Part shown: one piece after another, positions 34,466 to 36,835 of the stretch | Layout of the letters: every line of letters starts with the position of its first letter | How positions within the stretch are numbered: the stretch's first letter is position 1 | Assembly (NCBI RefSeq): GCF_013179285.1 | Contig: NZ_WVNW01000001.1 | Coordinates: 62,001 to 126,000 of the forward strand | DNA from: Roseobacter sp. HKCCD6576-2 | GTDB taxonomy: Bacteria > Pseudomonadota > Alphaproteobacteria > Rhodobacterales > Rhodobacteraceae | Direction of reading: 5' to 3' | DNA: 64,000 nucleotides | The notes under the pieces: generated by a model | Told to the model about the DNA's origin: nothing | The model's input: only the letters and a program-made list of their open reading frames with translations | Databases searched by the model: none | Made by a program: the position numbers and the translations under genes

Positions 34466-34882
34466 ATGACCATCCGCGCAGCTCTCTTTACCCTTCTGTG
34501 GTCCACAACAGCGCTGGCAAATGAGGCCGCGACGGTTCTGTTTGTCTCTGGCCCCAGCCGGCAGCTGAATTTCGCGCAAGGGGATGTTCTTGAACTCCAC
34601 CTCTCCGAAAGCGGCGGCCAGGCGGAGGTATTTGTCCGCCTGGGCGAACCGGCACGCGATGCTCTGGCCGATTTGACTCGCCTGTCGGTCGGTCAGGTGA
34701 TCGATATCGGCTTTTGTGATCACATCTTCACGTCGCCGGTTGTGCACGCATCAATCGACTCCGGAACATTCGTCATCACAGGCACGACTGTTCAACGCGC
34801 CGAGGCCTTGCGCGCGCTCTGGCATGGTCGCACGGGTTGCGACGAACTCGCACCAGAAATCTTTGAGCTGGAGGCTAGATAG
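34466..34882 (+). CDS. Secreted hypothetical protein with SecD P1-head-like segment
   Basis: Protein of 138 residues with a signal peptide ending in ALA-NEA. I do not recognise the family with certainty. The C-terminal part SGTFVITGTTVQRAEALRALWHGRTGC resembles the P1 head of SecD (ItGxFT..eA..La..Lr.G), and two cysteines (in GFCDH and GRTGCDE) could form a disulphide. It starts 1 bp after the GNAT gene and overlaps tetR by 8 bp at its 3' end. Confidence 0.7.
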   Translation: MTIRAALFTLLWSTTALANEAATVLFVSGPSRQLNFAQGDVLELHLSESGGQAEVFVRLGEPARDALADLTRLSVGQVIDIGFCDHIFTSPVVHASIDSGTFVITGTTVQRAEALRALWHGRTGCDELAPEIFELEAR

Positions 34883-35501
34883 TCGCCAAGCGGCGATACC
34901 GGGCAAGGAAGTTCTGTACTGCGTCTGTTGCGGCCTGATGTATTTCGGCTTCGTCGGGCACCTGGGCAACCCCCATAAGCCGCCGCAGCATCAGGTCACC
35001 GCGCAGAAGCTGCATGAATAGATCGGCAGCCTTCCGCGTGTCGTCGATATCCAGTTCGGCCTGCGCTTTTGGGCTTTCAAGATAGCTTGCAAGCTGCGCC
35101 ATCGCCGTTTTCGGTCCAGTTTCGTAAAATGCGCAGCCCAGTTCGGGGAACCGCTGCGCTTCGGCAACGCAGACCCGGAAGATCGCCAGCCCAGCATCGG
35201 ACAGCAGAAACGCCAGCATATGCGAGGCGATATGATACAACCCGTCCGCAACGGATTTCTGTTCGAACTCGATATCCATCGAAGCGCGTTCCTGGATGTC
35301 GCATTCCATCCGCAAGACGGCGAGGAAAAGATGCTGTTTGTCCGGGAAATAGCTGTAGAGCGTCGCCTTCGAGACGCCGGAATCGCGCGCGATCACATCA
35401 ACACTTGCCCCTTCAAAGCCCTCACGCATGAAGACCTCGCGGGCACCTGCTATGACCTGATCATATTTGCGACCCTTCTTAATCTGGGGTTCTGCGTTCA
35501 T
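34875..35501 (-). CDS. TetR family transcriptional regulator
   Basis: DNA-binding repressor of 208 residues from ATG 35501. The N-terminal HTH is DQVIAGAREVFMREGFEGAS with VDVIARDSGVSKATLYSYFP, a strong TetR signature; the C-terminal ligand domain (AGLAIFRVCVAEAQRFPELG) resembles the TetR_C_33/AefR group. The inducer is unknown. Its own promoter (35525-35554) contains a 15-bp operator-like palindrome, and a similar one lies 249 bp upstream, so it is probably autoregulated and controls a second unit. Confidence 0.92.
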   Translation of the reverse strand: MNAEPQIKKGRKYDQVIAGAREVFMREGFEGASVDVIARDSGVSKATLYSYFPDKQHLFLAVLRMECDIQERASMDIEFEQKSVADGLYHIASHMLAFLLSDAGLAIFRVCVAEAQRFPELGCAFYETGPKTAMAQLASYLESPKAQAELDIDDTRKAADLFMQLLRGDLMLRRLMGVAQVPDEAEIHQAATDAVQNFLARYRRLATI

Positions 35502-35524: not shown

Positions 35525-35554
35525 AGTGTAGACTGTTCTGTTTAGTTCAATCAA
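35525..35554 (-). promoter_or_regulatory. tetR promoter with TetR-like operator
   Basis: On the minus strand TTGATT (35549-35554) and TACACT (35525-35530) are 18 bp apart. The spacer holds ACTAAACAGAACAGT (35532-35546 read on the minus strand), which matches the box near 35781 at 11 of 15 positions when both are read as ACTAAAC..CAGT, and has outer arms ACT/AGT. It lies 24-53 bp before the tetR start, a typical autoregulation site. Confidence 0.6.
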
Positions 35555-35576
35555 GAGCGCCGTTGTCGCGGAGCCC

Positions 35577-35618
35577 AGAAAACAAAGGCGGAGGCACCGA
35601 AATACGGCACCCCCGCCT
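35577..35618 (-). terminator. Intrinsic terminator of the leader transcript upstream of tetR
   Basis: On the minus strand a 14-bp stem (35605-35618 with 35586-35599, three G-U pairs) with loop TATTT is followed by TTTGTTTT. It is a strong terminator placed before the tetR promoter, so the upstream transcript would end here. Confidence 0.88.
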
Positions 35619-35638
35619 CGGACCGACAGGGAGAGGTG

Positions 35639-35689
35639 TCAGTCGCCTTCGCCCGGCGGGTACAGTCCGGGCGGCGGTATCGCTCTCAT
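35639..35689 (-). CDS. Possible 16-residue proline-rich leader peptide
   Basis: The frame ATG 35689 to TGA 35639 encodes MRAIPPPGLYPPGEGD. PPP followed by PP would be expected to slow ribosomes and depend on EF-P. It has no strong RBS (only AAGA about 10 bases upstream) and ends 20 nt before the terminator stem. It may be a leader peptide, or chance; the surrounding structure is what makes it worth recording. Confidence 0.3.
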   Translation of the reverse strand: MRAIPPPGLYPPGEGD

Positions 35690-35778
35690 GGGAGTCTTGA
35701 ACGATACCGGCTCTGTATCGCGGTTTAGAGCCGAACATAGCGTCTGGGGGAACGAGGCTCTCCCAGCGATACATGCTA

Positions 35779-35807
35779 AAACTAAACTGTTCAGTCCGAA
35801 TTTCAAG
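35779..35807 (-). promoter_or_regulatory. Promoter of the leader transcript with TetR-like operator
   Basis: On the minus strand CTTGAA (35802-35807) and TAGTTT (35779-35784) are 17 bp apart. The palindrome ACTRAACNGTTYAGT (35781-35795) covers the spacer and overlaps the -10. It also lies 93 bp before the AEC gene on the other strand, so binding might affect that gene too. Confidence 0.55.
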
Positions 35808-35887: not shown

Positions 35888-36835
35888 ATGGTCGAGATTT
35901 TCCTCAAGACTCTGCCGTTTTTCGCGCTAATCGGATTGGGGTTCCAGGCCGGGCGTACCGGGTTTTTCACGGCCGAAGCGACCGCTTATCTCACCAAATT
36001 CGTCTTCTACTTCGCGCTGTCGGCGATGCTGTTCCGGTTTTCGGCGAATCTGTCCCTCGCCGAGATCTTCGACTGGTGGTTTGTGGCCGCCTATCTCTGG
36101 GGTTGTTTCACCGTCTATCTGATCGCCACCGCCGTCGCGCTCTTCCGAAGGCGCGGCATCGAGGAGGCGGCGGTCGAGGCGCAATGCGCGGTGATCGGCA
36201 ATACCGGCTTTCTCGGCGTGCCGATGTTGATTGTTCTCTTGGGCGAGGCCGCGGCGGGGCCTGTCTTGATGGTGCTGGCGCTCGATCTAGTCGTTTTCTC
36301 AAGCCTTATCGTGATCCTGATCACCGGCAGCCGCGATGGCCGTATGTCGCTTGGTATCTTGAAGACCGTCGGCATGGGCTTGCTCAAGAATCCGATGATC
36401 GTCTCGATGACCCTCGGCTTGCTCTGGTCGGCCTTCGCCTTGCCGATCCCCGAGGTGGCCAATGAGTTCCTAGCCATTCTCGGCGCCGCCGCCACGCCTG
36501 GTGCCCTCTTTGCCATTGGGGCCTCGCTGGCAGGCAAATCCGCCGAACGGCTCACTGTCGCGGGCTGGCTCACCTTCTGCAAGCTGGTCTTACACCCGGC
36601 GGCCGTGGCCCTCGCGGCATTGGTCCTGTTCCCGGTGCCGATCTTTGATGCTGCGGTTATGATCGCCGCCGCGTCGCTGCCCGTCGCGGGCAATGTCTAC
36701 ATCTTGGCGCAGCATTACGGCGTCGCGCCGCATCGTGTCTCGGCCTCAATCCTGATCTCAACCGCGCTCAGTATCGTGACAGTGTCGGTTGTCATTGCTT
36801 GGGTGAGCGGCCTTGCAGGGATCACGCCAGGCTAA
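35888..36835 (+). CDS. AEC family transporter (auxin efflux carrier-like)
   Basis: Inner-membrane carrier of 315 residues with about ten hydrophobic helices (FALIGLGFQAGRTGF, LTKFVFYFALSAMLFRFSA, VIGNTGFLGVPMLIVLLGEAAAGPVL). The NTGFLG(V/I)P motif in helix 4 and the C-terminal repeat LPVAGNVYILAQHYGVAPHRVSASILISTALS are typical of AEC permeases, which export organic acids such as malonate or malate; the substrate here is unknown. It is divergent from tetR and may be under its control. Confidence 0.9.
   Translation: MVEIFLKTLPFFALIGLGFQAGRTGFFTAEATAYLTKFVFYFALSAMLFRFSANLSLAEIFDWWFVAAYLWGCFTVYLIATAVALFRRRGIEEAAVEAQCAVIGNTGFLGVPMLIVLLGEAAAGPVLMVLALDLVVFSSLIVILITGSRDGRMSLGILKTVGMGLLKNPMIVSMTLGLLWSAFALPIPEVANEFLAILGAAATPGALFAIGASLAGKSAERLTVAGWLTFCKLVLHPAAVALAALVLFPVPIFDAAVMIAAASLPVAGNVYILAQHYGVAPHRVSASILISTALSIVTVSVVIAWVSGLAGITPG

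Follow-up and report, generated by a model that had tools for sequence, protein, structure and literature searches.

The minus strand of the window (the whole stretch of DNA analysed, 64,000 nucleotides in length) holds, at positions 35807-35578, a compact unit that consists of a promoter, a TetR operator, an RNA of about 195 nt with four hairpins, and an intrinsic terminator. This unit is real and conserved and is probably an RNA gene repressed by TetR, and its product is most likely a base-pairing regulator. More specifically, we regard it, at a probability of roughly 0.6, as a gene for a trans-acting small RNA (sRNA) that would be repressed by the adjacent AefR-like TetR protein and would belong to the regulon of that repressor. 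The conserved unit, its operator, its structure and its loop motif, each backed by sequence comparison, support the small regulatory RNA that was one of the options raised by the first-pass annotation of this DNA; from them we infer transcription, binding and repression by TetR, base-pairing and targets.

Promoter and layout of the RNA unit

Every sequence element that the first-pass annotation had placed on the minus strand between 35807 and 35578 was found again at its position. The -35 element CTTGAA (35802-35807) is present in all six aligned loci. It is followed, after a spacer of 17 nt in the window, by a -10-like element (35779-35784), which reads TAGTTT in four of five genus genomes and TAGTTC in the fifth. 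A scan for the sigma-70 consensus yielded zero promoters at this locus, and the promoter claim therefore rests on the conserved CTTGAA-N17-18-TAGTTT/C arrangement and on the operator inside it. This operator, ACTGAACAGTTTAGTTTT (35778-35796, minus strand), overlaps the -10 element and the spacer, and the divergent AEC transporter gene starts about 92 bp away from it. Evidence from the single sequence supports the RNA fold, not the promoter.

The structured RNA itself spans 35577-35778 on the minus strand, where it is matched by covariance model R1 at 212 bits; this is the score of a training sequence, as the model was built from the window RNA and four others. The features predicted for an sRNA unit were all found, namely an own promoter (by conservation only), an operator, a structured body, an intrinsic terminator and conservation in relatives.

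Secondary structure

Folding of 248 nt, promoter included, gives a z-score of -4.59, which none of 200 dinucleotide shuffles equalled. The trimmed transcript of 202 nt reaches -5.84, and the other five aligned loci range from -3.65 to -6.78. Four segments, GTATCG, CGATAC, GGTATCG and CGATACC, start at 35772, 35720, 35708 and 35682, as had been claimed, and form the first two hairpins in the predicted fold and in the alignment. Hairpin 1 (35714-35773) pairs segments 1 and 2 and exposes a loop with UUCCCCCAGAC; hairpin 2 (35676-35708) pairs segments 3 and 4, and its loop contains GACUCCCAUG. Hairpin 3 (CCCGG ... CCGGG; 35645-35675) and hairpin 4 (35621-35644, with CUCUCCC in its loop) are taken from the predicted fold. 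The CCCAGAC stretch of the hairpin 1 loop is present in all six loci, including that of G174 (see below).

The unit ends in an intrinsic terminator with a T tract (35579-35619, minus strand like the hairpins). The strong terminator described previously is borne out by a stem between 35619 and 35585, in which 15 pairs are counted, with a 5-nt loop and the T tract behind it. Fourteen pairs are held in the alignment of five genomes, where 100% of the cells are paired and two pairs have changed on both sides. Taken alone, a terminator scan is not significant (1 site against 0.9 expected in shuffles).

Conservation and distribution

The RNA unit is present in five of the seven genomes of its genus (G000, G061, G001, G004 and G003), and it tracks tetR, in that all five genus genomes with this tetR carry the RNA. 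In G005 and in G002, a genome that is only 89% complete, the unit was not found: the model search gave no match, and no tetR was detected at E<=1e-20. BLAST recovers the unit at 71% in G004 and G001. A DNA search of 61 genomes returned three long matches (own genome, G004 and G001) and five short ones of 20-43 bases; the copies in G003 and G061 were recognised by reading upstream of tetR, and the G061 copy is absent from the model-search result.

The covariance model search of 195 genomes found four strong places, all of them sequences from which the model had been built. Outside the genus nothing scored above 27 bits, compared with 147-212 bits inside it, and no convincing full-length copy was seen there. 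Weak matches outside the genus fall in G119, G106, G048 and G350; the first two (26 and 21 bits) were rejected as copies of the RNA, their loci having no operator above 12 bits and a likeness that by eye is confined to the terminator. Among 47 sequence sources searched, only the window matched, together with a weak match to the terminator of locus L049, and a plasmid search gave no match. Locus L049 belongs to Rhodobacterales bacterium HKCCE3408 (G174) and holds a shorter unit at the corresponding position, which has CCCAGAC in one loop and lacks TCCC; its operator is poor by eye, and this short unit is perhaps related to the sRNA. The homologous gap had been proposed for comparison across Rhodobacterales. 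Within the genus the stems and the terminator are indeed kept, but the wider scope did not hold, as the RNA is confined to the genus in the genomes searched.

What the comparison brings out is the pairing. In the five-genome alignment 92.2% of the pair cells are standard pairs, against 37-48% when the structure is slid along the alignment; the structure had been derived by RNAalifold from this very alignment, which tilts these slid controls somewhat in its favour. Eight pairs have changed on both sides, against 0-3 when slid, a count that 4 of 500 shuffles reach, and the covariation score of 0.286 (slid, 0.053-0.094) is matched by none of 500 shuffles, although the five sequences represent three distinct lineages and the covariation is correspondingly thin. 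One of the five covariation measures, the count of further pair types, shows no advantage over shuffled alignments (21 against 20.7; 290 of 500). Between the window and G004, identity amounts to 88% in the promoter-operator stretch, about 71% in the RNA body, and 66% and 64% in the two flanking spacers. Plain identity of the RNA body is thus little above that of its flanks and, judged from these sequences, it is the pairing that is conserved.

Neighbouring genes

Downstream of the unit lies the gene for the AefR-like TetR repressor (34875-35501, minus strand), with TetR_N and TetR_C_7 domains (the latter at 8.4e-32); homologues occur in 204 of 295 family genomes at E<=1e-30. A match to TetR on a viral contig (33% over 48 residues) was set aside as not relevant. 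On the other side, the divergent AEC transporter gene (35888-36835, plus strand), identified by its Mem_trans domain, may share the operator of the small RNA, and is followed by a gene for S-formylglutathione hydrolase (TIGR02821). The plus strand at 34466-34882 encodes a small protein that looks exported and has a SecDF P1-head-like domain (2.8e-08), and the end of its gene overlaps the 3' end of tetR. At locus L015 of G061, which is of the same species, the tetR frame is broken by a frame change, either genuine or due to a sequencing error; a genuine one would leave the RNA derepressed in that genome.

The slot before tetR is occupied differently elsewhere. Eight other Rhodobacteraceae loci (L026, L032, L034, L035, L036, L040, L041 and L043), picked by eye among 35 loci upstream of tetR homologues, have a gene for a protein of 53-62 aa before tetR. 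These proteins begin with what resembles a signal sequence and contain the stretch LP..(T/S/D/V)(F/W)P; most end in a manner resembling STQ or QGC, and their genes sit, by eye, behind one to three copies of a TetR operator-like sequence.

TetR operators and the putative regulon

The promoter of tetR, CTTGAT-N17-TCTACA (35527-35555, minus strand), carries a second TetR operator at 35529-35546 and resembles that of the RNA: both have CTTGA(A/T) and a distance of 17 nt, with the operator placed between -35 and -10. These two promoters are the only places of the twin operator ACTAAACWGWWCAGTC in the 64-kb window; at up to two mismatches, 2 matches stand against 0.04 expected, and 1 of at least 100 shuffles reaches 2. 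An operator lies at the RNA promoter in five of five RNA-carrying genomes, which strengthens the earlier suggestion that the transcript would be controlled by TetR. In G000, G061, G004 and G001 the tetR and RNA operators are recovered at up to one mismatch, and the two of G003 need two mismatches.

A looser operator pattern gives 42 matches in the five genus genomes against 36 for a reversed-pattern control, in a scan where palindromic sites can count twice. As 42 is hardly above 36, operator counts alone prove nothing, and it is the placement of sites before like genes that argues for a regulon. Operator-like sites stand before an araC-type gene in the own genome, G004, G001 and G061, and before a gene for a small secreted protein in the own genome, G004 and G003, in the last without an adjoining araC. 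Further sites precede an RND adaptor gene in the own genome, G004 and G003 (the G003 protein matches TIGR01730 at 7.5e-39, and the own-genome protein is 81% identical to it) and a MipA gene in G004 and G003 (the G003 protein is Pfam MipA); these RND adaptor and MipA placements cover the own genome, G004 and G003, and G001 carries like sites too. The best MipA homologue of the own genome (48%) has no operator above 9 bits. An operator matrix trained on these sites, run over 800 kb from the own genome, found nothing further above 17 bits.

The araC gene of locus L178:9-7044 is flanked by two operators and has exbB/exbD/exbD/tonB-like genes on one side and an ABC exporter on the other, the names of the flanking genes coming from reading of their translations. 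The operator-linked, secreted-looking protein of about 109 aa (L178:2433-2762, minus strand; L180:3026-3379; L183, at about 2618) has two QLA..GV..YTT(A/S)EL repeats and an STQ stretch; for the copy in the own genome, neither Pfam nor NCBIfam gives a match. At L054 and L068 a relative of this protein stands, by eye, directly before tetR.

Could the operator simply serve the AEC gene, and the hairpins and terminator shield tetR from read-through, so that the short transcript is an insulator with no function of its own? About 92 bp separate the operator from the start of AEC, and in many close relatives AEC and tetR, by eye, face each other directly with one operator. The -35 element and its spacing, however, face the RNA and not AEC, and compensatory changes have preserved hairpins 1 and 2, which precede the terminator; loops are conserved as well, and insulation would need none of this. 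We consider this explanation unlikely, although it survives better than those discussed below.

The short open reading frame

The 16-codon open reading frame (ORF) of the first-pass annotation, MRAIPPPGLYPPGEGD, is encoded at 35689-35639 on the minus strand, and begins, as described, inside the loop of the 3:4 hairpin. It is preceded by no Shine-Dalgarno sequence and its translation is unlikely. A small coding or dual-function RNA, in which a proline-rich ORF of 15-18 codons is translated and either the peptide or the act of translation is the function, would account for a regularity that goes beyond expectation: the frame has 16, 16, 15/18, 15/18 and 15 codons in the window, G061, G004, G001 and G003, and the same TGA column ends it in all five genomes. 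GAGGG stands 11-15 nt upstream of the outer ATG in G004 and G001, and TetR-operator-linked small secreted peptides fill this slot in other Rhodobacteraceae. Against these points, the ATGs of the window, G061 and G003 lack a Shine-Dalgarno sequence, the TGA lies at the stem of hairpin 4, which fixes it, and several proline and glycine codons fall in the stem of hairpin 3. The codon differences between the window and G004, counted by hand, are 8 non-synonymous and 2 synonymous (n=10), and within the species the last codon changes from D to G. Moreover, the peptide has by eye no signal sequence, unlike the peptides of the relatives. Place and frame persist, but a hand comparison shows no amino-acid constraint, and the peptide gene that had been raised earlier is not supported as the main product; a coding function of the RNA appears rather unlikely. 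In the window, an ATG near the 5' end of the RNA opens a longer frame that meets no stop within the RNA; G004 and G003 lack an ATG at the corresponding place.

Loop motifs and candidate targets

TCCC occurs three times in the RNAs of the window, G061, G004 and G001, and twice in that of G003. Taking a mean unpaired probability above 0.6 as accessible, 3, 2, 3, 3 and 2 of these copies are accessible in the window, G061, G004, G001 and G003, and 1, 10, 0.5, 1 and 3.5% of 200 dinucleotide shuffles each do as well; the motif is short, and 10% of the shuffles equal G061. By analogy, exposed UCCC loops are a pattern that works like that of anti-Shine-Dalgarno sRNAs.

Candidate targets were scored as duplexes between loops and gene starts in 800 kb of the 4.41-Mb own genome and in 403 kb from G004, on genes called by a home-made procedure. 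The start of the araC gene, AUGGGAGUC, is complementary over 9 nt to loop 2 (35696-35688), and only 3 of 756 starts can pair over at least 9 nt with this loop. With loop 2 only, araC ranks 3rd of 245 orthologue pairs, a combined rank that none of 250 jointly shuffled loops matched; this test was post hoc, as the araC match had been noticed by eye and one of about 20 possible loop-gene pairs was then tested. With all loops, araC ranks 74 of 756, 61 of 368 and 21 of 245, and genes outside the regulon rank higher. For the G004 araC gene the best predicted duplex has a similar energy but is interrupted; in G003, loop 2 reads UUCCCGG and no araC stands beside the operator. We therefore treat the araC start as a lead, a plausible target of loop 2 and the best among the regulon members scored, which were araC, tetR and the secreted-protein gene. 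In the own genome, tetR and the secreted-protein gene are not predicted targets (ranks 519 and 722 of 756).

Two further candidates were rejected. A tctA-like gene offers a 12-nt perfect complement of loop 2 at its Shine-Dalgarno sequence (L223:8920-8960), which is not conserved in G004 and G001. The other was CCCAGAC taken as a seed: sequence complementary to it is found close to a single start in each gene set (1 of 756 and 1 of 368), and the two are not orthologues.

The repetition of short loop motifs would also suit a sponge, whose C-rich loops would sequester a second RNA or some RNA-binding protein and not mRNA starts, and an RNA sponge has been reported from Caulobacter (PMC12559287). 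None of the results suggests a partner, however, and UCCC loops suit mRNA starts better, which makes a sponge improbable.

Alternative pairings of the four segments

The four segments had been described as able to pair as 1:2, 2:3 or 3:4, as in attenuators. All three pairings are complementary in the window, and this part of the description stands; their use as an attenuator does not, as 2:3 is weak or lost in relatives. Its energy weakens from -7.9 kcal/mol in the window to -6.8, -3.7 and -1.2 kcal/mol in G004, G001 and G003, whereas 1:2 (-17.8 to -24.8 kcal/mol) and 3:4 (-7.2 to -16.2 kcal/mol) are kept. A leader of tetR, in which a switch between 1:2/3:4 and 2:3 lets transcription into the gene, would fit these complementarities and the terminator that stands before tetR, but is rejected as very improbable, because 2:3 is not kept, hairpins 3 and 4 separate the segments from a terminator that forms alone in the minimum-energy fold, and tetR has its own promoter and operator past the terminator.

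Proposed mechanism and significance

In the favoured reading of a trans-acting, TetR-repressed sRNA, TetR on the operator between -35 and -10 would block transcription of the RNA, as at the tetR promoter. A ligand would free TetR, and the RNA of about 195 nt would then be made along with the RND adaptor, the AraC-type regulator, the small secreted protein and TetR itself. It would fold into its four hairpins and terminator, with UCCC exposed by three loops, and these loops could pair with ribosome-binding sites and starts of GGGA type and so lower translation of target mRNAs, the start of the araC mRNA being the best candidate among the regulon members examined. A more far-reaching version, in which this is a new RNA family where an efflux-type TetR drives a multi-loop anti-Shine-Dalgarno sRNA that silences araC as a built-in brake, and where the RNA takes the position used by TetR-controlled small secreted peptide genes in other Rhodobacteraceae, so that one regulatory site carries a peptide in some genomes and an RNA in others, is offered tentatively and is unlikely to apply in full.

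Provided that the RNA is made, it would link post-transcriptional control in a marine bacterium to a TetR of the drug- or metabolite-sensing type. The locus, which is small and open to testing, would help to show what the AefR-like TetR, widespread as it is (204 of 295 genomes), controls.

Comparison with known systems

The first-pass annotation had known of no RNA family of this kind and, in line with this, a search of the whole window against Rfam gave no family at its gathering score, a result that for alpha-r14 is meaningful only if Rfam models that family. The 3' part of the RNA gives a weak full-length match to the SorX model (RF02784), and membership was rejected at 18.1 bits against a gathering score of 46.6; better SorX-like matches elsewhere in the own genome (39.8 and 37.2 bits) are also below the cut-off. 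Neither this RNA nor a TetR-controlled anti-Shine-Dalgarno sRNA in Rhodobacteraceae was found among the literature matches listed, which are mostly without subscription papers.

A close likeness is to alpha-r14 / NfeR1 of Sinorhizobium meliloti, one of the 'cuckoo' RNAs, which likewise has several hairpins with sequence-variable stems and a repeated C-rich motif in the loops. According to its description (PMC10746234), NfeR1 has its own promoter with N17 spacing, like the RNA described here, and three hairpins that differ in their stems and carry an identical CCUCCUCCC in unpaired regions, which pairs at the start of ntrB and silences it. The small RNA is likened to NfeR1 in this mode of action, its own pairing at a target's start being predicted. 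The exact 9-mer of the anti-Shine-Dalgarno motif CCUCCUCCC is absent in six of six loci, and for this reason we say that the RNA would work like NfeR1 and do not call it a member. It further differs from alpha-r14 in that its loops share only UCCC, that a TetR operator lies at its promoter, and that it is restricted to the genus in the genomes searched.

C-rich loops are also found in the CcsR RNAs. CcsR1-4 (CIN1 locus) are stress sRNAs of Rhodobacter sphaeroides, a member of the same bacterial family, and according to their description they are processed from the transcript of a DUF1127 gene with an RpoHI/RpoHII promoter (PMC10253847). The small RNA differs in forming a single unit that has an operator and a terminator to itself, and DUF1127 is not among the neighbouring proteins tested, which were three (TetR, Mem_trans and the SecDF_P1_head-like protein).

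As for the regulon, operators at the own tetR gene and at an RND adaptor gene are as in efflux regulons of AefR/AcrR-type TetR proteins, to which an sRNA, an AraC-type regulator and a small secreted protein are added here. The kind of system is already known, and the pairing of a TetR repressor with a structured sRNA is the uncommon part of it.
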